From contig PWMO01000446.1 of NCBI GenBank assembly GCA_003558175.1, forward strand, positions 1 through 10,864: a DNA stretch of 10,864 bases, read 5' to 3'. This DNA comes from Spirochaetaceae bacterium (GTDB lineage: Bacteria; Spirochaetota; Spirochaetia; DSM-27196; PWMO01). Below are positions 83 to 10,745 of the stretch, one piece after another. Numbering within the stretch: position 1 is the stretch's first letter; every line of letters starts with the position of its first letter. Below the pieces are notes generated by a model. That model made no database searches. It saw only the letters and a list, made by a program, of their open reading frames with translations, and had not been told where the DNA came from. The translations under genes and the position numbers were made by a program.

Positions 83-793
83 GTGCGCAGCTCTGGGCTC
101 AGCGACACCGATCGCGCCCTGCTGCGCGAAGGGCTCTCGACGCTGGCCCTCCCGGCCGACCATTCCGTACTTGAGAAGCTGGGGCGCTACCTGGCGGAAC
201 TGCAGCTCTGGAGCCGCCGGACCGATCTGGTACGCTTTGCCGATACGCGGGAACTCATCGTGCGCCACGTGCTCGACAGCGTGGCCCCTGCCGCCATCCT
301 TATCGATGCGCTGCGCAGGCGAGGGATCGAGCCGGAGCGAGCCCGTGCCTGCGATGCAGGCTCGGGAGCGGGGCTGCCCGGTGTGCCGCTCGCTCTCTGT
401 ATGCCGTTTCAAAGCGTCCATCTACTGGAACGCTCCGCGTCGCGGGTGGCCTTTCTGCAGACCGTGTGCGCCGTTGTGCAACGTCCCGGCCTTTCGGTCA
501 TTGAAGGCGACCTGGCACTGCCGGCGGACCGCTTCGACCTGGTGCTGGTGCGCGCGCTCAGCCCTTTCGACGAGGCTGCCGTGCGCGGGCTGGCGCGAGC
601 GGTTGCCGATGCGGGCGTGCTTGCCCTCTACCAGGGTAAACCGGAGACGGCGCGAGCCGCGGCGCGACGGTTGAGGAGCTGGTTTGCGGCGGTGGACGTA
701 CTACCGGTTACGGTGCCGTACCTCGGGGCCGAGCGGCACATGGTCGTGGCGCACTCCGTCACGGGATCAAGTGCACTCCGTCACGAGATCTGA
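83..793 (+). CDS. rsmG: 16S rRNA (guanine(527)-N7)-methyltransferase RsmG (GidB)
   Basis: RsmG uses S-adenosylmethionine to methylate N7 of G527 in the 530 loop of 16S rRNA; loss of the family enzyme in other bacteria gives low-level streptomycin resistance. The 236 residues are close to the usual 205-240. Visible family signatures are the N-terminal helix with the RHVLDS box (residues 61-66), the SAM-binding loop GSGAGLPG (93-100) followed by VPLAL, an acidic residue after the second strand (LLERSASR, E116), and the VRALSPF motif (156-162) matching the family SRAxxxL segment. The GTG at 83 is chosen because it gives a family-like N-terminus; there is no strong Shine-Dalgarno and the frame stays open upstream, so the exact start is uncertain. 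The C-terminus (VAHSVTGSSALRHEI) is encoded by a short tandem duplication and overlaps the 3' end of the converging TPR gene by 13 bp. Confidence 0.95.
   Translation: MRSSGLSDTDRALLREGLSTLALPADHSVLEKLGRYLAELQLWSRRTDLVRFADTRELIVRHVLDSVAPAAILIDALRRRGIEPERARACDAGSGAGLPGVPLALCMPFQSVHLLERSASRVAFLQTVCAVVQRPGLSVIEGDLALPADRFDLVLVRALSPFDEAAVRGLARAVADAGVLALYQGKPETARAAARRLRSWFAAVDVLPVTVPYLGAERHMVVAHSVTGSSALRHEI
751..790. repeat. Two-copy near-tandem repeat, 22-bp period, at the rsmG 3' end
   Basis: GCACTCCGTCACGGGATC (751-768) recurs as GCACTCCGTCACGAGATC (773-790), one mismatch in 18 bp, with four bases (AAGT) between copies. Because 22 is not a multiple of three, the two copies are read in different frames of rsmG. 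The minus-strand stop of the TPR gene (781-783) lies in the second copy. Confidence 0.9.
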
Positions 794-2130
794 TTCAGGA
801 TCTTGACCAGTTCTTCCTTCTCAATCAGGTCGATCAGCCGAGCTTCAACAAAGCTCCTGGCACTGTCGGAAAACTCTCCTGCGGTCAGACAGAAGCCTCG
901 TCCCGCCTTGAGATCCTTGAGCCGGGCGTGAAAATCACGCAGCATGAGCTCGCCAATCTGTCCACTGGTGCGCAGGTAGCGAAAAAGAATCAGGTCAACC
1001 CACTTGGCCGTCTCGACCTCAGCCAGGATGTCGGCGTATTCGTTTCTGGTTACCGAAACGTCGGTGATCTTGATGCGCGCCTGGGGAAAGTAGTTATCAG
1101 TGATTTTGCGGCAGAGCGCCACGAATTCCGACGAGTTTGAAGCAAGAAACGTGTGCAGGTTCTTATTGGAATGCAGTTCGCGCATACGGCCGATCTGGGC
1201 CGACACGTCCTTATATCCCGGGCGCACCTTCTGAATCTGCTCGAGCAGTGCGAGCGCTTTGCCGATCTGCTGCTGTCGGCCGTACGCCCCGGAGAGGCGG
1301 TAGCGCAACTCAACGGCAATGTCGGGAGGTATTTCCGGATGACGCAGGCCCAACTCGAAATCCGTCTGTGCCTTCTCGTACTGCTTCTGCTTGAGCCGGA
1401 TGGTTCCGGCAAACAGCGACGAGCGCGGGCCAAAGGTTGGATCGGTGCGCAGGTGCGAAAAGATTCGTGCCGCCTGATCCTGCTGCCCGAGTTCAAAATG
1501 GGCCTGTGCCAGCACGAAAAGCGATTCTTTGTCGTCCGGTTGCAGTTCGAGCACGCGCTTCAGCAGCGCAATGGCATCGTTGTATTTTTTTATCTTGTAG
1601 AGCGCTTGCGCCAGATAGCGGTTCGTACCCGGGTGCTCGGGCTTCTCTTCGCGCGCCGCGCGCAGGTAAGAGACCGCCTTCTCGTAGTTGCGGCGCAGAA
1701 ACTCGAGGTAGCCCAGGTTGTAGTTGAGATCGAACCCTTCAGGGTTGAGCGAACGCGCGAACACAAGCGATTTGTAGGCCGATTCGTACTGCTTGAGTTG
1801 GACGCCGCAGAGCCCGTGACGCAGATTGACATAGTAACCGTCCATATCCGGGTTGGTGGCGCTGATATCGAGCAGCGCCGCATAGGTCTTCAGCGCCTTG
1901 TCCCAGTTCTGCTCTTCAAAGTAGAGGTCGGCCAACGTCTGGAGTGCTTCCGGGTCTTTGGGGTTCTGACTGAGCGCCCGATTGGCCTCGCGAACGATGG
2001 TCTCCCGGTCACGCTTGGCCTTGCGTTTACGAGCGGGTGCCGTCCCGCTTCCACGGAACAGAATCAGAGCGACACCGATGAGGACGAAGATCGTTGCAAT
2101 CAGAAGAGCAATCGCCGTAAATTGGACCAC
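781..2130 (-). CDS. Membrane-anchored TPR protein with degenerate Mrr-like C-terminal domain
   Basis: The 449-residue protein begins with one hydrophobic segment (about residues 5-25) followed by a strongly basic stretch (ARKRKAKR, 33-40). By the positive-inside rule this tethers a cytoplasmic body to the inner membrane. Residues ~42-305 are tetratricopeptide-type helical repeats, with recognisable A-L-Y/NYNLGYLEFLRRNYEKAV-like and YLAQALYKIKKYNDAI-like units, so the protein probably scaffolds protein contacts. Residues ~330-449 resemble the Mrr/restriction-endonuclease-like fold: an ADILAE strand carrying D367, a second strand ending ILFRYLR, a GRGFCLTAGEFSDSAR segment like the Mrr xKGxFxTTSGFSxEAR block, and RLIDLIEKEELVKIL at the end. 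The catalytic Q/E-x-K is replaced by L-F-R (R384), so nuclease activity is unlikely. The GTG at 2128-2130 is the only reasonable start: an in-frame TGA lies at 2152-2154 and no other start follows before the TM segment. No known gene name fits. Confidence 0.85.
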   Translation of the reverse strand: MVQFTAIALLIATIFVLIGVALILFRGSGTAPARKRKAKRDRETIVREANRALSQNPKDPEALQTLADLYFEEQNWDKALKTYAALLDISATNPDMDGYYVNLRHGLCGVQLKQYESAYKSLVFARSLNPEGFDLNYNLGYLEFLRRNYEKAVSYLRAAREEKPEHPGTNRYLAQALYKIKKYNDAIALLKRVLELQPDDKESLFVLAQAHFELGQQDQAARIFSHLRTDPTFGPRSSLFAGTIRLKQKQYEKAQTDFELGLRHPEIPPDIAVELRYRLSGAYGRQQQIGKALALLEQIQKVRPGYKDVSAQIGRMRELHSNKNLHTFLASNSSEFVALCRKITDNYFPQARIKITDVSVTRNEYADILAEVETAKWVDLILFRYLRTSGQIGELMLRDFHARLKDLKAGRGFCLTAGEFSDSARSFVEARLIDLIEKEELVKILNQIS

Positions 2131-2285: not shown

Positions 2286-3599
2286 GTGTCGGGTTCCCAT
2301 ATCGGGATAAAAATTGCGGATGGATCCTTTTATCCCATCTTCGAGAAGACTGCGCAAGGGAAGAAACGACTCACACTGACCACCGCCCATGAAGGCCAGC
2401 AGGCGGTTCACGTGTCACTGTACCAGGGCGACGACAGCGGCAACGCCGAGTACATCGGCACTCTGATGGTGGAGAACATAAGCCCGGCGGGTCAGGGTGA
2501 AGCCGAGATCAGTCTGGTGCTCGGTGTCGATGAATCGGGCAACCTCAACGCCACCGCCACCGACCTTGGTAGCGGCGAGTATCAGAGCCTTTCGGTGAGC
2601 CTCCAGTCCATTCATGAACAGAATCTGTACGAGATGCCCGATTTTTCGCTCGAAGAGGACGAGGGCGAAGAGTTCTCCGTTGACTATGAAGACGAAGACC
2701 AGCCGGCAGACGCGGAGATCGCGGATACCGAAGCTGCGGATACCGACGCCGCAGCGGGTTCCGAAGCCGCACCGGCATCGGAGCCGGAGGGTGAAGAACT
2801 CACACTGGACGAAGATTTCGATCTCGACGATCTGGATTCGCTCGATCTCGAACTGCCGGAGCCTGATACCGACGATCTCAATTCGATCGAGCAAGAGGGA
2901 GATTCCGCGGCAACAGAGGACAGCTTCACGTTTGACAGCGGCGAGGAGGCCGACGCTGAGTGGCAGGCAGCCCTCGATGCAGACGAACAGCGCTATGCCG
3001 GTGAGCCGGGCGTGGCGCAGCAAGCCACCGCTGCCGCACCTGAGGCTGCGGCCGAAGATGAGTTCGATCTCAGCCTGGACGAAGAAGACATCAGCCTGGA
3101 TTTAGGCGACGCTGAGGCAGACGAGGACGCCGATTCCGGCGCCGACGGCACGTTCGACGAGCTTGATGATCTCGGTGCCGACAGCGGCTTTGATCTGAGC
3201 GATCTGGGAGATCTGGACGATTACCAGCTGGACGAAGGTGAAGAAGCTGCAGGTCAACCGGCGGTCGAAGCCGCCGAAGAACCGGAGACTCCGGCAGCCG
3301 CGGCAGCGGAACCGGAACGCGCAGAATCGGCCGCTGCAACGCCGCGGACGGCGAGGATGGGGTTCACCGCCGACTTCGATACCGAACCGGCTCAACGCGG
3401 TGCGAGCGTGATTCTGTTCCTCGGGTTTGTCATACTGGCACTTGCAGCGCTCGGGTTTCTGACGTACATTATTTTCCGTGCGATCGAGAGTCCAAGCGTC
3501 CCGCCGATTGAGGCCGGGATCTCCCTGTTCTTGCCGTTCAGAACGCGTGGTGCGACCCTGTTGCGGCGCCTTTGGCAGCGCCGCAGTTCACCGACTTGA
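2286..3599 (+). CDS. Hsp70 substrate-binding-domain-like protein with acidic linker and C-terminal TM segment
   Basis: Residues ~5-107 of 437 follow the beta-sandwich peptide-binding domain of DnaK block by block: GIKIADGSFYPIFEK matches the strand and I-P-T-K entry, RLTLTTAHEGQQAVHVSLYQGD matches the DnaK F-S-T-A-E-D-N-Q-S-A-V-x-I-x-V-L-Q-G-E block, then YIGTLMVENISPAGQG (DnaK L-G-x-F-x-L-x-G-I-x-P-A-P-R-G), VLGVDESGNLNATATDLGSG (F-D-I-D-A-D-G-I-L-x-V-S-A-x-D-x-x-S-G) and a final SLSVSL strand. There is no ATPase domain and no alpha-helical lid. Residues ~119-350 are an Asp/Glu/Ala-rich, probably disordered linker with repeated FDLxxLxxL-type motifs near residues 178, 260, 290 and 302. One hydrophobic segment spans ~374-399, followed by a 38-residue basic tail. 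There is no signal peptide, so I infer a tail-anchored cytoplasmic protein that may bind extended peptides without ATP. The start is set by a strong RBS. No established gene name applies; function is unknown. Confidence 0.85.
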   Translation: MSGSHIGIKIADGSFYPIFEKTAQGKKRLTLTTAHEGQQAVHVSLYQGDDSGNAEYIGTLMVENISPAGQGEAEISLVLGVDESGNLNATATDLGSGEYQSLSVSLQSIHEQNLYEMPDFSLEEDEGEEFSVDYEDEDQPADAEIADTEAADTDAAAGSEAAPASEPEGEELTLDEDFDLDDLDSLDLELPEPDTDDLNSIEQEGDSAATEDSFTFDSGEEADAEWQAALDADEQRYAGEPGVAQQATAAAPEAAAEDEFDLSLDEEDISLDLGDAEADEDADSGADGTFDELDDLGADSGFDLSDLGDLDDYQLDEGEEAAGQPAVEAAEEPETPAAAAAEPERAESAAATPRTARMGFTADFDTEPAQRGASVILFLGFVILALAALGFLTYIIFRAIESPSVPPIEAGISLFLPFRTRGATLLRRLWQRRSSPT

Positions 3600-3795: not shown

Positions 3796-6021
3796 ATGCT
3801 GAGATTTGTCTCCTTTTGCGCGGCACTTCTGTTCTTGAGTCTGCCCGGATGCGCTGAGTACAGCGAGGTCTGGGGGTTCGACGTTGCCGCGGCGCGGGCC
3901 AAGCTCGAGAACGGCAATTTTGGTCCCTTCCTTGAAATCGATTTCTCCGAGGTCAACCCGTCCGAGGTACTGCGAATTGGTGACGGTGCCGCGTATTATC
4001 TTGCGTACGCGTTTCGGCAGGAGGGGCGCACTGAGGAGTCTCGGCATCTGTTCCGGCAGTCGTGGCGCGCCGACCCGGAACCGTGGCGCCGGGCTTCGTT
4101 GATCCGACTTCTCGACGACCTGCTGGAACAAGAACAGTATGCCGACGTTCTTGAACTTGCCGCTGAAGGACTCGCGCGCTACCCGGACGACGTTGAAGTA
4201 GAATCCTACCGCTACGAGGCTCTCTACCGCAGCAGGCAATACGCGGCGCTGCTGCTGGAACTCGACACGTTCGAGCGGATCCCACACGCCGCCGGTCGCT
4301 GGCTGCCGGTCGACCGGGCGTTGTGGATCGCCGTAGCCGCCTACCGACAGGATCGTCCGGATTGGGAAGAACAATTCCTGGCTGCGTTTCGCGATTATCG
4401 CGCGTCGGCACATCATTCGCGACTGTTCCTGTTTGCGGTTGCCGAGGGCGACATCCTCAACCGCTACCATCGGCCGCAATCGTTGCTGATTGAGGCCAGG
4501 TATCACCTTGCCGAAGACCGCCCCGGGCAAGCGGCGCGGATCTTCCGCGCGCTCATCAACGAATACGCCGAAAACCCGGAGATCGCTTCGGTTCTGGTGA
4601 ATGCGGCGGTACTGACCGACATTGGCCGCGCCACCGTTGCCGGCGGCGATTGGGCCCAGACGGCCGCAGCACTGCAGCGGCTGCTGCGGGTAGCCGAGAC
4701 GCACGGCAGCGCCTACGACCGCGCTCGAATACTCGAGTATCTCGGCAGGGTCCAGCGATCGGTGGGCAACCGCCCGGCGGCGCTGAACTCGTTCGAACAG
4801 GCGATGCAACTGGACCTTCGCGGGGCCGACCGAGACCGCGTACTGTGGTATCTGCTGCAGACTACGGTCGATCGGGATCCAGACGCAACCGTTGGGTTGC
4901 TGGAACGCTACGCCTCGGCCATCTCCAACCCTGCGCTGTTTCGCAACACGCTGGACGCGCTCGCCTCGCGTCTGGTGCAGCAGCGCAACTGGCCGGCGTT
5001 GCAGCGTGCGTGGGTGGCGCTGGAAGGGACGGTCGACGCGGGCAGTGTGGCACAGTATTCCATCATCAATGCCGTGGCGCTGCAGGCCGGCCTGACGGAG
5101 GGCGAAGAAGAAGACATTCGCAGCTACCTGCGCCAGGCGCAGCGACAGTGGGAGAATCCCTATTACGCGCTCCTGGCTGCGGTTCTGCTGGATCGAGACC
5201 GGGGGCTTCTGAACAGCAGACCGGAGGTGCCCGAGCCGGCCGAGCTCTCACCTGCCGACCCGTTGCCCGCCGAAGAACAAGACGCCGATTCCCTCGCGCA
5301 GGCGTATGCGCAGGCGTATGTAGACGGCTACTTTGCTTTCGGGCTGCTGGAGGAAGGCTACCGCCAGGCGCGGCAACGGGCGGATCGGCTCTCATCCGAG
5401 CGGCTTGCTCAGTATGCACAACGGCTTGGAGAAGCCTCCAACTATATAGACTCGATGCGGCTGATGGACGTGGTTGCCCGACGCGAAAACCGAATGCTGC
5501 CGCGGGAATGGGCCCTGGTGATGTATCCGCGCGCGTTTGGCGCTGAGATGGGAGCGGTGATCCGCGACGAGACCCTCGATCCGGAGCTGTTCTTTGCTCT
5601 GGTGCGTGAGGAGAGCTACTTCGACGCCGGGATCAGTTCACACGTAGGGGCGACGGGCCTGGCACAGCTCATGCCGGCAACGGCCGCCGAGGTTGCGCGC
5701 GCGATGCGTCTCGATAACCCCGTCCTGACAGACCCTGCGACCAATCTCGCGATTGGCGCGCGCTATCTGCGCGGCCTGATCAACCGGTTTGACTCCGTGC
5801 ACGATGCTCTTCTCGGTTACAATGCCGGTCCGACGCGGGCGCGCCGCTGGCGAGCGCAGAACGGCGCACTGCCGCCGATCCTTTTCCAGGAGGCGGTTCC
5901 CTTCCACGAGACACGCCACTACGTGCGCAAGATTTTCGTCAGCGCGGCGCACTATGGTGCGCTGTACGGCGGGCTGCAACCCCGGGCAGTGCTGCAGCAG
6001 ATCTTCTCCAACGGCTGGTAA
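3796..6021 (+). CDS. Slt70-like soluble lytic murein transglycosylase, predicted lipoprotein
   Basis: The enzyme cleaves the MurNAc-GlcNAc bond of peptidoglycan, leaving 1,6-anhydro-MurNAc ends, and should act in the periplasm. The first 18 residues form a lipoprotein signal (MLRFVSFCAALLFLSLPGC): the lipobox LPGC places a lipidated cysteine at position 19. Residues ~30-570 are alpha-helical, TPR-like repeats comparable to the U/L ring of Slt70, and ~580-735 are the GH23 SLT domain. Key motifs are VREESYF with the predicted catalytic E606 and S607, GLAQLMP (621-627) and LLGYNAGP (672-679), followed by ARRW and the HETRHYVRKI helix. At 741 residues it is about 100 longer than E. coli Slt70. 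ATG 3796 is chosen because it gives a complete lipoprotein signal; the Shine-Dalgarno is weak. ftsK follows 100 bp downstream on the same strand, so a shared role in wall remodelling at division is possible but not shown. The AQAY tetrapeptide repeat near residue 501 comes from a 12-bp duplication. Confidence 0.92.
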   Translation: MLRFVSFCAALLFLSLPGCAEYSEVWGFDVAAARAKLENGNFGPFLEIDFSEVNPSEVLRIGDGAAYYLAYAFRQEGRTEESRHLFRQSWRADPEPWRRASLIRLLDDLLEQEQYADVLELAAEGLARYPDDVEVESYRYEALYRSRQYAALLLELDTFERIPHAAGRWLPVDRALWIAVAAYRQDRPDWEEQFLAAFRDYRASAHHSRLFLFAVAEGDILNRYHRPQSLLIEARYHLAEDRPGQAARIFRALINEYAENPEIASVLVNAAVLTDIGRATVAGGDWAQTAAALQRLLRVAETHGSAYDRARILEYLGRVQRSVGNRPAALNSFEQAMQLDLRGADRDRVLWYLLQTTVDRDPDATVGLLERYASAISNPALFRNTLDALASRLVQQRNWPALQRAWVALEGTVDAGSVAQYSIINAVALQAGLTEGEEEDIRSYLRQAQRQWENPYYALLAAVLLDRDRGLLNSRPEVPEPAELSPADPLPAEEQDADSLAQAYAQAYVDGYFAFGLLEEGYRQARQRADRLSSERLAQYAQRLGEASNYIDSMRLMDVVARRENRMLPREWALVMYPRAFGAEMGAVIRDETLDPELFFALVREESYFDAGISSHVGATGLAQLMPATAAEVARAMRLDNPVLTDPATNLAIGARYLRGLINRFDSVHDALLGYNAGPTRARRWRAQNGALPPILFQEAVPFHETRHYVRKIFVSAAHYGALYGGLQPRAVLQQIFSNGW
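5296..5319. repeat. 12-bp in-frame tandem duplication inside the transglycosylase gene
   Basis: GCGCAGGCGTAT is repeated exactly (5296-5307, 5308-5319), encoding an AQAY-AQAY duplication in a helical part upstream of the catalytic domain. The reading frame is preserved. Confidence 0.9.
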
Positions 6022-6121: not shown

Positions 6122-8599
6122 ATGGTGCAACCGCGATCGACGTCGCTTGTGGTCTCATCGATCCTCGTGGCCACAGGTATCGTGCTTCTGGCGTCCTGCG
6201 TGACGCATATGCTCGGATTTGGCTCGCGTAGCTTCTTCCTGCTGATTCTTGAGGTGCCGGGACAGTTTCTCTATAACAGTTTTCACCTGGCGGGCTTCAC
6301 GGTTCCGCTGTTCTTCCTGGCTGCGGGCATCCTCGTTATACGGCCGTATGTGCGGCCCGGGGCGGTGGCCGGCCTGAACCTTTCGCTGCTGCCGTTTCTG
6401 ACACTCAGCCTCTCCCTGCGGCTGCTGTTCCGGGCCGATATTCAGCGCTCGCCGGCCACACGACTTGCGGCGGAACGGTTCACTCCACTGGGAGGAGCGT
6501 TCTTCTTCCTGGTGCTTTCGCTCGTGCTGGTTGTGCTGATTCGCCGTGTCGCTCTCTGGTTGAACTCCGTCCTGGATGTCCGGGACGACTCCAGACGCAG
6601 GACTGCCGCCGCCGCGGGAGCAGACTCGGGTGATGATCCATTTGAAGGTTCGGTAGACGGCTCGGTAGAGTCGGTTGATGACGCGGGCCGCGCGGGCACC
6701 GACGCTGTCCACGCTACCGGCGCTCCGCTGCTGATAACCGACGGAACTGTCGTTGACGATGCTCCCGGGCTGTCGGGAACCCGAGACGACGACGGTGTAG
6801 ACTGGACCGCGCCCCCCGTTTCGCAAATGGTTGCCGAATCGCTCGCCGCGCTGCGCCGACAGTCGCAGACCGAAGATCCCGTCCAGTACGCAGATTCGCG
6901 CCACGAGGCGTTTGATGAAGATCAAGCGCTGTATGAGGCTGAAGTTGAGTTCGTTGATGAAGACGTCGAGGCGGAACTGCTCGATGAGGATGTCGAAGAC
7001 GAGGCATCCGACGAAGTACCGATACTGCGCTTCAGCGAAGGTCGGTTCAGCGACGTGGACGTGGACATGGACATGGACATGGACATGGAGTGGGACGACG
7101 CCGACGACGCTCCCGACGCAGTGCACGCCGACAGTCCCCGGAACCCGTCCGCCGGCGCGGCGCCAGGCAAGGCCCCGCGGCGCAGACGCAACCGGCGCTA
7201 CCAGGTTCCGATCGACGGTATTCTGGACAAGTACGCCGACGTCGGGTACTGGGTGATCGACGATGAAACCCGCCAGGCGGCCGAGATGCTGCGCGTGACG
7301 CTGGAGGAGTTTCAGATACAGGCCGAGGTTACCGGCATTCGCAAGGGGCCGGTGATCACGATGTTCGAGATTCTCCCCGCCCCGGGGGTCAAGCTGGCCA
7401 AGATCACCAATCTGGCCGACAATATCGCACTGCGGCTTGCCGCACAAAGCGTGCGCATTGTCGCGCCAATTCCGGGCAAGCACGCCGTGGGGATTGAGAT
7501 TCCCAACCGGCGGCGCAACATCGTTTCCTTCGGCGAGCTGCTGCAGGAAGAGACGTTCCGCAACCCCAAGCTGTCTATCCCAATTGCGCTCGGCAAGGAC
7601 ATCCCCGGTGACGCGCAGATTGTCGATCTGGCGCGCACCCCGCATCTGCTGATAGCAGGTGCAACCGGATCGGGGAAGTCGGTGTGCGTCAACTCCATCA
7701 TCTGCTCGGTTCTCTATCGGCGCTCACCGCGCGAAGTGCGCATGATGCTGATTGACCCGAAGATTGTTGAATTGAAGTTCTACAACGATATCCCTCATCT
7801 GCTGACTCCGGTGATCACCGATCCCAAGCGGGCGTTTCAGGCGCTGCAGTGGTGCATCTACGAGATGGAGCGGCGCTACAGCCTGCTCGACAGTCTTGCG
7901 GTGCGCGACGTGCGCTCGTACAACGCCAAAGTCGAGAAGCGCAATCTGGCCACCGAGCAGCTGCCCTACATCGTGGTGGTGATCGACGAGTTTGCCGACC
8001 TGATGCAAACCAGCGGGAAGGAACTGGAGTCCACCCTGGCGCGGCTGGCCGCCATGTCGCGTGCGGTGGGGATCCACCTGGTGCTCGCGACCCAGCGGCC
8101 CTCTACCGACGTGATCACCGGTCTGATCAAGGCCAACATTCCGTCGCGCATCGCTTTCATGGTTTCGAGCAAGGTGGACTCACGGATTATCCTGGATGCC
8201 CAGGGTGCCGAGAAACTGCTGGGGCAGGGCGACATGCTCTTTACCTCGGCGTGGGACCCGTTTCCAACGCGGATGCAGGGCGCATTTCTCTCCGAGGAAG
8301 AGGTGGAGCGCGTGGTCGACCACGTCAAGACCCTCGGCGAGCCGGAGTACATCGACGACGAAATCTTCATTGATGAGGACGACGAAGACTACATCCGCGA
8401 CGAACTCGAGGACCCGTTGATGGAGAAGGCGATCGAGATCGTGGTCTCCGCCAGAAAGGCCTCGGCCTCCTACCTGCAGCGCCGTTTGAAGATTGGCTAC
8501 AATCGTGCGGCGCGGCTGGTGGAGGAGATGGAGCGCATCGGAATTGTCGGGCCCCAGAACGGCAGCAAGCCGCGCGACATAATCGGCGCGCCGAACTGA
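6122..8599 (+). CDS. ftsK: DNA translocase FtsK/SpoIIIE
   Basis: FtsK is a septal, ATP-driven hexameric pump that moves double-stranded DNA and clears chromosomes from the closing septum. The 825-residue protein has an N-terminal membrane part with hydrophobic segments at about 8-28, 37-55, 56-74, 79-103 and 122-142. A long acidic linker follows (about 150-345, with a DVDVDMDMDMDM run at 311-322), then a basic patch (RRRRNRR, 353-359). The alpha/beta motor starts near 365, with Walker A GATGSGKS (513-520, K519), the phosphate loop context LIDPKIVELKFY, and Walker B VVVIDEFADL with D622/E623. The C-terminal winged-helix gamma domain occupies ~764-825 (SASYLQRRLKIGYNRAARLVEEME), which in FtsK/SpoIIIE reads the polarity sequences on the chromosome. 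The start at ATG 6122 has only a weak RBS. The length and order match the family; the linker is shorter than in E. coli and unusually rich in Asp/Glu. The 100-bp gap upstream (6022-6121) shows no convincing promoter or hairpin. Confidence 0.97.
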   Translation: MVQPRSTSLVVSSILVATGIVLLASCVTHMLGFGSRSFFLLILEVPGQFLYNSFHLAGFTVPLFFLAAGILVIRPYVRPGAVAGLNLSLLPFLTLSLSLRLLFRADIQRSPATRLAAERFTPLGGAFFFLVLSLVLVVLIRRVALWLNSVLDVRDDSRRRTAAAAGADSGDDPFEGSVDGSVESVDDAGRAGTDAVHATGAPLLITDGTVVDDAPGLSGTRDDDGVDWTAPPVSQMVAESLAALRRQSQTEDPVQYADSRHEAFDEDQALYEAEVEFVDEDVEAELLDEDVEDEASDEVPILRFSEGRFSDVDVDMDMDMDMEWDDADDAPDAVHADSPRNPSAGAAPGKAPRRRRNRRYQVPIDGILDKYADVGYWVIDDETRQAAEMLRVTLEEFQIQAEVTGIRKGPVITMFEILPAPGVKLAKITNLADNIALRLAAQSVRIVAPIPGKHAVGIEIPNRRRNIVSFGELLQEETFRNPKLSIPIALGKDIPGDAQIVDLARTPHLLIAGATGSGKSVCVNSIICSVLYRRSPREVRMMLIDPKIVELKFYNDIPHLLTPVITDPKRAFQALQWCIYEMERRYSLLDSLAVRDVRSYNAKVEKRNLATEQLPYIVVVIDEFADLMQTSGKELESTLARLAAMSRAVGIHLVLATQRPSTDVITGLIKANIPSRIAFMVSSKVDSRIILDAQGAEKLLGQGDMLFTSAWDPFPTRMQGAFLSEEEVERVVDHVKTLGEPEYIDDEIFIDEDDEDYIRDELEDPLMEKAIEIVVSARKASASYLQRRLKIGYNRAARLVEEMERIGIVGPQNGSKPRDIIGAPN
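7052..7087. repeat. Hexanucleotide microsatellite in the ftsK linker (6 units)
   Basis: Two GACGTG units are followed by four GACATG units, giving (Asp-Val)2(Asp-Met)4 in the acidic linker of FtsK. A six-base unit can expand or shrink without breaking the frame, so linker length could vary between strains. Confidence 0.9.
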
Positions 8600-9397: not shown

Positions 9398-9733
9398 TTA
9401 CTCCGTCTTGAGCCGGTTGTAGATCTCGCCGCTTACGGTGAACTGGTTCTTCTCAGTCAGAAACAGCGCAATCTGCTCGCCGGCCGCGGCCTGGATCATG
9501 TCTTCGGGCAGCGGCCTGGAGTTGCAGATCACAATGGCCGAGATCCCCGCCATGCTCGAGACCGCGATGGTATTCTTGTGCGCCTGTATGGTCACCAGCA
9601 CGCAGTTCTCGGCCGCGTTGGCCATGACATCGCTGAGGAGGTCCGAGGTATAGCCGCTACTGATCTCGCGGTCGGTGTAGTCCTGCTGCACCGGCTCATA
9701 CCCAAGGGCTGTGCCAAGATCAGAGGTCTTCAT
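9398..9733 (-). CDS. DRTGG-domain protein
   Basis: The 111-residue protein is essentially one DRTGG-type domain (residues ~2-108). This fold is also found between other domains in some phosphotransacetylases and in proteins related to HprK and CobQ, where it is thought to bind small ligands or regulate. The repeated beta-alpha pattern is visible in CVLVTIQAHKN, GISAIVICNSRPLP and QIALFLTEKNQFTV. The frame is open further upstream to 9898, but I choose ATG 9733: a strong AAGGAG lies six bases before it, and the extra residues upstream overlap the CBS-HATPase gene and do not look like the family. The start lies 14 bases inside the end of the preceding gene, so the two are co-transcribed and probably coupled. 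The biochemical role of stand-alone DRTGG proteins is unknown to me. Confidence 0.82.
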   Translation of the reverse strand: MKTSDLGTALGYEPVQQDYTDREISSGYTSDLLSDVMANAAENCVLVTIQAHKNTIAVSSMAGISAIVICNSRPLPEDMIQAAAGEQIALFLTEKNQFTVSGEIYNRLKTE

Positions 9734-10745
9734 TCTGTTCTCCTTTCGGGATGCGAATTGTTGCGGACACCCTGGTTCCGGCGGGACTGGACTCGATCGA
9801 GAAGTCGTCCGCCACGCGCTTGGTATTGGGCAAGCCCATGCCTGCTCCAAAACCCAGTGAGCGTACCCACTCGGTGGCGGTTGAATAGCCTTCTTCAACC
9901 GCCTGCTCTACATCCGGAATCCCGGGTCCCGTATCGACTGTTCGTATGGTGGCCTTTTCGTTCTCCCAGTTGAAGAACACTTTCCCCCCGTTGGAGTGTA
10001 CTACCAGGTTCATCTCCAGCTCGTATGCCGCGACCGCTATGCGCCGAATCAGTTTTGGATCATTGTGCCGCTCTTTACAGAGCTTCTTGATTTCGAACGA
10101 AGCCTTGCCGGCGTTCTCAAAGTCAAACTTGCGAATTACGAACTCCCGATGAGTACCGGTGCTGGTGCTGATCGGCTCATCGAGATGAACTCGCTTCTCG
10201 AGCGCCTCGACTTCCTTGTTGAACTCCAGCAGCAGCGCAACGAGGATATCCCGGCTGGTGATGATCCCGACCAGCTTCTTATGCCGATTCAGGACCGGGA
10301 ATCGGCCGTAACGATACTTGTCAAAGTACGAGATTCCGAAGGACAGCGGCATGTCGTCCTCGAGCACAATCAGGTTGCGTGACATCCGGTCTTCAACCAG
10401 GTCTTCTACATGGCCGTTGTCGAGCGCGTGGATGATGTCGTCAACGCTGATCATGCCGAGCAGCCGCCCGTCTTCCGCCACCGGCACCCCGGTTATGGCG
10501 TTCTCCTTCATGATGGCCTGCACATGACGGAGCGGGGTACCGCGTGGAACGGTGATGACGTTCTCGGTCATGGCGTCGCGAATGCGGAGCCGGTAGACGA
10601 GTTCCAGCAGAAAGGAAGGAGAGTCGTCGGTATTGATCGGCAGCGTGCTCATCCAGAGTCCCCATGTGGCTTCCGCGTCACTCACCGTTGTGGCCATGAT
10701 CGCAGATTTGATCGCGGAACCGATGGCTCCGTAGTCTCCCGGCAT
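9720..10745 (-). CDS. CBS-pair protein with RsbT/RsbW-type HATPase (serine kinase-like) domain
   Basis: Two CBS motifs (about residues 59-108, MTENVITV to DDIIHAL, and 121-173, MSRNLIVL to SRDILVALL) form a Bateman module that typically binds adenine nucleotides. After a short helical link comes a GHKL ATPase domain (about 200-332): N-box YELEMN (E242, N246), G1 box DTGPGIPD (271-278) and G2 box GFGAGMGLPN (298-307), closest in look to RsbT/RsbW anti-sigma-type serine kinases. No histidine-kinase phosphoacceptor region is present. I infer a cytoplasmic switch that senses adenylate or redox state and acts by phosphorylation or binding of a partner. It is the first gene of the operon with the DRTGG and PHP genes. 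The start is uncertain: ATG 10745 gives 341 residues, whereas ATG 10652 (residue 32) gives 310 and removes a stretch that looks unlike the family; neither has a strong RBS. No STAS-domain partner is encoded in the window. Confidence 0.85.
   Translation of the reverse strand: MPGDYGAIGSAIKSAIMATTVSDAEATWGLWMSTLPINTDDSPSFLLELVYRLRIRDAMTENVITVPRGTPLRHVQAIMKENAITGVPVAEDGRLLGMISVDDIIHALDNGHVEDLVEDRMSRNLIVLEDDMPLSFGISYFDKYRYGRFPVLNRHKKLVGIITSRDILVALLLEFNKEVEALEKRVHLDEPISTSTGTHREFVIRKFDFENAGKASFEIKKLCKERHNDPKLIRRIAVAAYELEMNLVVHSNGGKVFFNWENEKATIRTVDTGPGIPDVEQAVEEGYSTATEWVRSLGFGAGMGLPNTKRVADDFSIESSPAGTRVSATIRIPKGEQNEDL
9740..9745 (-). promoter_or_regulatory. Ribosome binding site deciding the DRTGG start
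   Basis: The minus strand reads AAGGAG here, six bases before ATG 9733, within the 3' end of the upstream CBS-HATPase gene. It supports 9733 over any longer start. Confidence 0.8.

Follow-up and report, generated by a model that had tools for sequence, protein, structure and literature searches.

The open reading frame (ORF) at 2286-3599(+) encodes a member of a real and conserved family of spirochaete membrane proteins (SBD-TM family), in which the peptide-binding sandwich of Hsp70 (SBD-beta) forms the N-terminus and is followed by an acidic leash and one transmembrane (TM) segment. The proteins form a spirochaete family, present in the class to which the analyzed organism belongs and, in the same phylum, at the loci read from a second class. 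The family is undescribed as far as open-licence PMC papers show, since no description of an Hsp70 SBD-TM-LysM protein was found there (with locus tags guessed from gene numbering). Regarding its function, our leading but tentative reading, to which we give somewhat less than an even chance, is that of a bitopic inner-membrane adaptor or scaffold with the SBD as a nucleotide-free, lid-less clamp, probably in flagellum or cell-wall work.

The stretch of DNA analyzed here (the window) is contig PWMO01000446.1 of a Spirochaetaceae bacterium (GCA_003558175.1), with a length of 10,864 nucleotides. It contains, in this order, genes for RsmG, a divergently oriented TPR protein, the SBD protein, a BB0259-type lytic transglycosylase and FtsK (Table 1). 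The end of the membrane-anchored TPR protein matches Mrr_cat (PF04471), an endonuclease-like fold. At 9398-10745(-) of the window, a DRTGG-domain ORF overlaps the end of a gene with CBS and HATPase_c_2 domains by about 35 bases; matches to these two genes and to a PHP gene also follow FtsK in five related loci (L008, L010, L017, L046, L062).

Table 1. Coordinates of the SBD gene segments and of the neighboring genes in the window.
Feature	Position	Strand	Characteristics
Divergently oriented gene for a TPR-repeat protein with an N-terminal TM and a Mrr_cat-like domain at the C-terminus	781..2130	-	TPR_19 E 6.1e-25; PF04471 E 1.6e-7; pI 9.2
Hsp70 SBD-beta-like domain	2286..2606	+	residues 1-107, 8 strands; predicted cytosolic
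Acidic leash	2607..3401	+	residues 108-372; 93 D/E and 5 K/R in 265
Single transmembrane helix	3402..3476	+	approximately residues 373-397; peak hydropathy 2.76 (19 residues)
Short basic tail, predicted periplasmic	3477..3599	+	PPIEA stretch; without LysM
Lytic transglycosylase for flagellar assembly (BB0259-type), directly following the SBD gene	3796..6021	+	NF047373, 519.6 bits, cut-off 234
FtsK DNA translocase, end of recurrent block	6122..8599	+	PF01580 E 1.1e-66

The start of the ORF product matches Hsp70 SBD-beta (Pfam HSP70, E 1.6e-7). An AlphaFold model of 125 residues (pLDDT 83) gives an eight-strand sandwich with about 24% identity to solved SBDs, and Hsp70 entries account for 49 of the 50 best rows in Foldseek and in VIA alike. 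The SBD-beta sandwich of Hsp70 is thus present according to Pfam, AlphaFold, Foldseek, and VIA, and a chance match is ruled out by the Pfam E-value together with the structural matches. An earlier, sequence-only reading had assigned the first ~107 residues to the DnaK peptide-binding sandwich and had proposed structure prediction with a structural match as the check; the assignment is confirmed. The same reading described a further ~250 acidic residues and one C-terminal TM segment, which correspond to the 265-residue stretch and the hydropathy peak listed in Table 1.

The remaining parts of an Hsp70 are absent, in agreement with the earlier description of a free-standing SBD without ATPase or lid. 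The actin-fold ATPase (NBD) is missing from the ORF, as the HSP70 profile match only begins at profile position 395. The ORF opens directly at the sandwich, and the upstream DNA is occupied by the divergent TPR gene and contains no NBD, confirming that no frameshifted ATPase precedes the SBD. As for the helical lid (SBD-alpha), no helix follows residues 107-110 in the 125-residue model, and residues 112-180 of P0041, a relative with LysM, have no predicted structure (AF2). Matches of full-length Hsp70 profiles reach past the sandwich into acidic residues, up to residue 154 for Pfam and 188 for NCBIfam, with scores on the window protein that are no better than those of the SBD piece alone. The window protein therefore carries a real Hsp70 SBD-beta, yet is not a member of the full Hsp70 chaperone family given the absence of NBD and lid; it may work like an Hsp70 SBD-beta.

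With window residues 1-120 as query, 182 proteins were found at E ≤ 1e-3 among 345 candidates. Every fully shown organism name among the 120 listed matches is spirochaetal, and many of these proteins carry PF01476 (LysM). LysM-bearing members as query yielded at least 1059 proteins at E ≤ 1e-10 in a search that scored only the 7999 candidates sharing most words; among the 120 matches listed, all contain HSP70 and 115 also LysM. Relatives for locus analysis were found with one peptide pattern, and 80 of 239 were kept. The 89 relative loci are the 97 loci minus L001-L007 and L092, i.e., the Hsp70 loci of the window's own genome and the window itself. Locus counts are not independent, because L023/L088, L039/L089, and L096/L097 look like the same or near-same genome.

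Complete ORFs are available in 79 of the 89 loci and all encode a hydrophobic, TM-like segment (threshold 1.6), reaching at least 2.2 in 78 of them (only 1.68 in L028). A LysM motif, scored by motif, follows the TM in 61 complete relatives. In fifteen of the other 18, only 25-47 residues follow the TM, as in the window protein, whose subgroup is without LysM and in which Pfam gave no LysM match; the last three (L049, L054, L086) have 113-141 residues after the TM. The PPIEA stretch in the tail of the window protein recurs after the TM in relatives. The window protein thus shows the N-terminal SBD-beta, the acidic leash and the one TM of the family, without the LysM of the majority. The full-length AF2 model of P0041 comprises a sandwich (5-107), an unstructured leash, a helix (181-205), an unstructured stretch, and a LysM (278-327) with a pLDDT of 94-96 from residue 281. 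The whole-model pLDDT is 72.1, and with a pTM of 0.39 the arrangement of these domains is not fixed by the model. The genome G329 encodes two SBD-TM paralogs (L123, L124): the paralog without LysM is found at the canonical place, whereas the LysM-bearing paralog has a new location next to a single-strand-binding-protein-like gene.

As LysM functions on the outer side of the inner membrane, the SBD should be cytosolic and the C-terminus periplasmic. The charges flanking the TM point to the same predicted topology: in 62 LysM members (61 complete, one cut) there are on average 3.8 K/R before versus 1.9 after the TM, and K/R are more abundant before the TM in 46 of the 62.

The peptide-binding groove was mapped by aligning a DnaK stretch to 186 distinct family sequences. 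We take I8, A11, L31, T32, Q38, V41, and I/V43 of the family to be the equivalents of I401, M404, F426, S427, Q433, V436, and I438 in DnaK, respectively, and position 40 that of A435. The groove-equivalent positions are mostly hydrophobic and highly conserved (I8, I 89%; A11, A 99%; L31, L 92%; T32, T 99%; V41, V 96%; I/V43, I 88%), and Q38 is found in every one of the 186 aligned sequences with a letter there (100%). Position 40 is variable, and the member from a Treponema pallidum-like genome (G056, see below) departs from the pattern at positions 41 to 43. The mean entropy of 11 groove positions is 0.69 bits versus 1.57 for the rest of the domain (permutation p 0.0009). It rises to 2.68 in seven positions of a putative NBD-docking loop, presumably the loop that has this role in DnaK. 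A constrained groove combined with a variable docking loop is as expected if peptide binding was kept and nucleotide coupling lost, and peptide binding by the SBD clamp is predicted from this pattern.

A PDFxL motif (window 2637-2651(+), residues 118-122), for which we know of no DnaK counterpart, lies directly after the sandwich and could be a docking or pseudo-substrate motif. It bears on the rather unlikely alternative that the SBD fold merely serves as a protein-protein or oligomerization module, with a groove that is peptide-free or filled by a segment of the protein itself, such as the PDF stretch. F120 of the motif is indeed invariant in a 63-row alignment, and there is no lid or nucleotide control for the release of a client. 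Against such a module, constraint is stronger at the groove positions than elsewhere in the domain, the invariant Q38 (186-row alignment) included; moreover, inspection of the G056 protein by eye reveals no evident F120 motif, and AF2 models give the PDF stretch low confidence. A decayed or frameshifted Hsp70 gene, of which the SBD would be the sole Hsp70 part left, is scarcely credible and was rejected: 79 complete relatives share the SBD-plus-TM plan, which recurs in another class, the constraint is strong, and two full-length Hsp70 genes are located elsewhere in the window's genome.

Neighbors in the 89 loci were identified in tblastn searches that used the proteins encoded in the window as queries, an approach that misses divergent neighbors and those beyond contig ends, by which some of the loci without a match are cut. 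The transglycosylase gene is downstream on the same strand in 63 out of 63 loci where both match (26/89 without a match in reach), and the TPR gene is divergent and within 800 bases in 53 out of 53 (36/89 without a match in reach), as upstream of the window ORF. FtsK has the same strand as the SBD gene in all 26 loci where both match. No transglycosylase match was found in L051 and L063, which have full flanks, nor a TPR match within 10 kb on either side in L059 and L087, which come from complete Treponema chromosomes. Many treponemes are without the TPR neighbor, and a universal SBD-TPR pairing is ruled out by the 36 loci without a TPR match in reach and by G056. In the class survey, 94 genomes with both places listed were entered. 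The transglycosylase gene is at most 4 kb downstream in 74 of them, on a different contig in 18, and far apart in two (G049, G006, family f6). This count relies on the best listed SBD place per genome and leaves out G410, whose listed places are also adjacent; in G453 and G459, counted as ‘different contig’, a second SBD copy adjoins the transglycosylase gene. Genetic linkage to the BB0259-type transglycosylase was thus found at the level of both loci and genomes. For L098-L103 and L120-L132, gene names rest on inspection of the translations by eye, save where a profile result is given. In another class, the complete order TPR-SBD-transglycosylase-UppP-FtsK is seen in L129, while only the TPR-SBD pair is noted for L127 and L128.

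Of 49 complete copies of the TPR protein, 47 have a pI higher than 8, and residues 108-160 of the leash have a pI of about 4.1 in the values listed. The N-terminal TM of the TPR protein is followed by basic residues, which predicts a cytosolic TPR domain. TPR co-chaperones read the acidic tail of Hsp70. Given this analogy and the opposite charges of the basic TPR protein and the acidic leash, a pairing of the SBD and TPR proteins is plausible.

Divergent relatives are found in Borrelia-like genomes and in a Treponema pallidum-like genome. One Borrelia-like genome has, flanked by the TPR and transglycosylase genes, a gene for 414 residues of the family plan, with an N-terminal domain, an acidic leash and a TM but no LysM. 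An hhalign comparison of 14 Borrelia-like proteins (that of L118 truncated by N) with the family gave a probability of 90 and an E-value of 1.6e-6 over 71 columns. By gene number, this gene would be BB0260 in B. burgdorferi; the term ‘bb0260’ is absent from the main text of PMC8517470. The Borrelia-like locus L099 further contains an Hsp70 gene and, by eye, a signal-peptidase-like gene within ~5 kb. This Hsp70 (L099:10728-12239(-), 503 aa), a few genes from the SBD-TM gene, has an ATPase and SBD-beta but no helical lid by eye. The Treponema pallidum-like genome G056 (1.14 Mb) encodes a 310-residue SBD-TM-LysM protein whose gene shares 35 bases with the transglycosylase gene, with a chemotaxis-receptor-like gene instead of the TPR gene as upstream neighbor. 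At L098:3512-6557(+), the SBD-TM-LysM and transglycosylase genes overlap by 35 bases, which suggests translational coupling. Named Treponema species with family members are T. vincentii, T. parvum, and T. saccharophilum. TPASS_0049 is a LytM hydrolase in the published annotation.

Among 218 genomes of the class, FlhA is present in 182, the transglycosylase (above cut-off) in 152, and the SBD gene (E ≤ 1e-15) in 120. FlhA occurs in 118 of the 120 genomes with the SBD gene versus 64 of the 98 without; the two exceptions (G495, G507) are 81-82% complete. Conversely, the SBD gene is missing at this threshold in 34 of 36 FlhA-negative genomes (Fisher p 1e-11, uncorrected for relatedness). Phylogeny confounds this association, as does the threshold, which overlooks divergent members. 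The survey undercounts, since all 23 Borrelia-like genomes (f9) and G056 scored negative, although the SBD gene was found in G056 and in all 14 f9 loci read; it may also overcount near the threshold (G499 of f20, 7.1e-16). At E 1e-3, 384 of 392 genomes are positive and the family is inseparable from background scores of ~1e-8 to 1e-14, which are taken to be DnaK. Beyond the class, an SBD with a LysM-like end is encoded at each of six loci from other families of the phylum (L127-L132), and many other families gave background scores only at E 1e-3.

A strict link between SBD gene and flagellum is ruled out by three families. Family f20 (L102, L103) keeps FlhA and the transglycosylase, the TPR gene adjoining the transglycosylase gene with no gene in between. 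In f18 (L100), a LysM-M23-like gene takes the place of the SBD gene upstream of the transglycosylase. Ten of the 11 f12 genomes have the SBD gene without an over-cut-off transglycosylase (G441 has both, on different contigs). In five f12 loci (L120-L122, L125, L126) the SBD-LysM gene directly precedes FtsK with no transglycosylase between them. These five loci and the uniform FtsK orientation would fit a tether for FtsK in division or chromosome segregation rather than a flagellar factor. We consider this improbable, as L102 keeps an FtsK-like gene (by eye) without an SBD gene at the locus, and FlhA-negative genomes mostly lack the SBD gene at the threshold used although division is obligatory. 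The latter absence is equally at odds with the prediction for a general holdase, i.e., an ATP-independent membrane protein whose SBD holds unfolded or secretory chains in solution close to the inner membrane, which is the view nearest to the peptide holder of the earlier reading. The conserved, mostly hydrophobic groove positions are in line with such a holdase, for which the acidic leash could serve as solubilizer, and the Hsp70 and signal-peptidase-like genes of L099 would fit a chaperone role; the genes that recur around the SBD gene, as searched with proteins of the window, have to do with wall and division, and we regard the holdase as fairly unlikely.

In the preferred adaptor or scaffold model, the SBD clamp would be the cytosolic end of the protein, connected by the long acidic leash to the single TM helix, and its target would be a hydrophobic segment in extended form, belonging to a partner in the cytosol or the membrane. 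The periplasmic LysM of most relatives would grip peptidoglycan, and the periplasmic end would mark the wall site where the flagellar lytic transglycosylase (and FtsK) act. The SBD-TM protein could thereby be a locator for the transglycosylase, with the wall gripped outside, a peptide gripped inside and its gene immediately upstream of that of the enzyme. In lineages with the TPR gene at this place, a candidate for the partner on the cytosolic side is the basic TPR protein with its membrane anchor. Wall binding would not be essential everywhere, because the window's subgroup is without LysM. While fold, membrane segment, LysM architecture and gene block follow directly from the computational analysis, we infer the topology, peptide binding, the scaffold role and the partners. 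A more specific version is a split, nucleotide-free Hsp70-like membrane device, consisting of SBD clamp, acidic leash, LysM grip, and, in many lineages, the TPR partner, that would read or hold a flagellar or FtsK-linked cytosolic peptide and license periplasmic wall opening by the transglycosylase. It is unlikely, its odds being lowered by a TPR pairing that is not universal.

In the usual picture of Hsp70, peptide binding makes up half of a cycle driven by ATP. If the adaptor model is true, a peptide clamp has been kept alone and tied across the membrane to the wall, which would make the SBD viable as a stand-alone recognition module. As the SBD gene is frequently located beside that of the enzyme for hook passage, the placing and timing of wall cutting would become directly testable. 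The divergent copies beside the transglycosylase in Borrelia-like and Treponema pallidum-like genomes would give the family a wider relevance.

Compared to known systems, the SBD-TM family shares the eight-strand sandwich with Hsp70/DnaK SBD-beta (PF00012, 1dkx family), including the invariant equivalent of Q433. It differs in that neither NBD nor helical lid was found, the putative NBD-docking loop is shorter and variable, and an acidic leash, a TM, and usually a LysM are added. Bitopic division proteins of the DamX/FtsN type combine a cytosolic part, a long leash, one TM, and a periplasmic wall-binding module. Their plan is like that of the SBD-TM family, except that they have SPOR instead of LysM and no Hsp70 domain. 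In the BB0259/LTase-Bb system of B. burgdorferi, BB0259 binds FlgJ, and without it the hook does not get through the peptidoglycan (PMC8517470). A figure legend in the Discussion of that paper calls it ‘pre-localized’, and the Discussion reports unsuccessful attempts at an enzyme assay (PMC8517470). The window SBD gene is immediately upstream of the gene for this type of enzyme, and its product has no enzyme domain itself. The LysM-bearing FliO of Myxococcota, as described in PMC12403147, likewise has a cytosolic beta domain, one TM, and an extracytoplasmic LysM in a flagellar context; its core, however, is part of the export apparatus and consists of an antiparallel sheet, whereas the cytosolic domain of the SBD-TM proteins is an Hsp70 SBD homologue in both sequence and fold.
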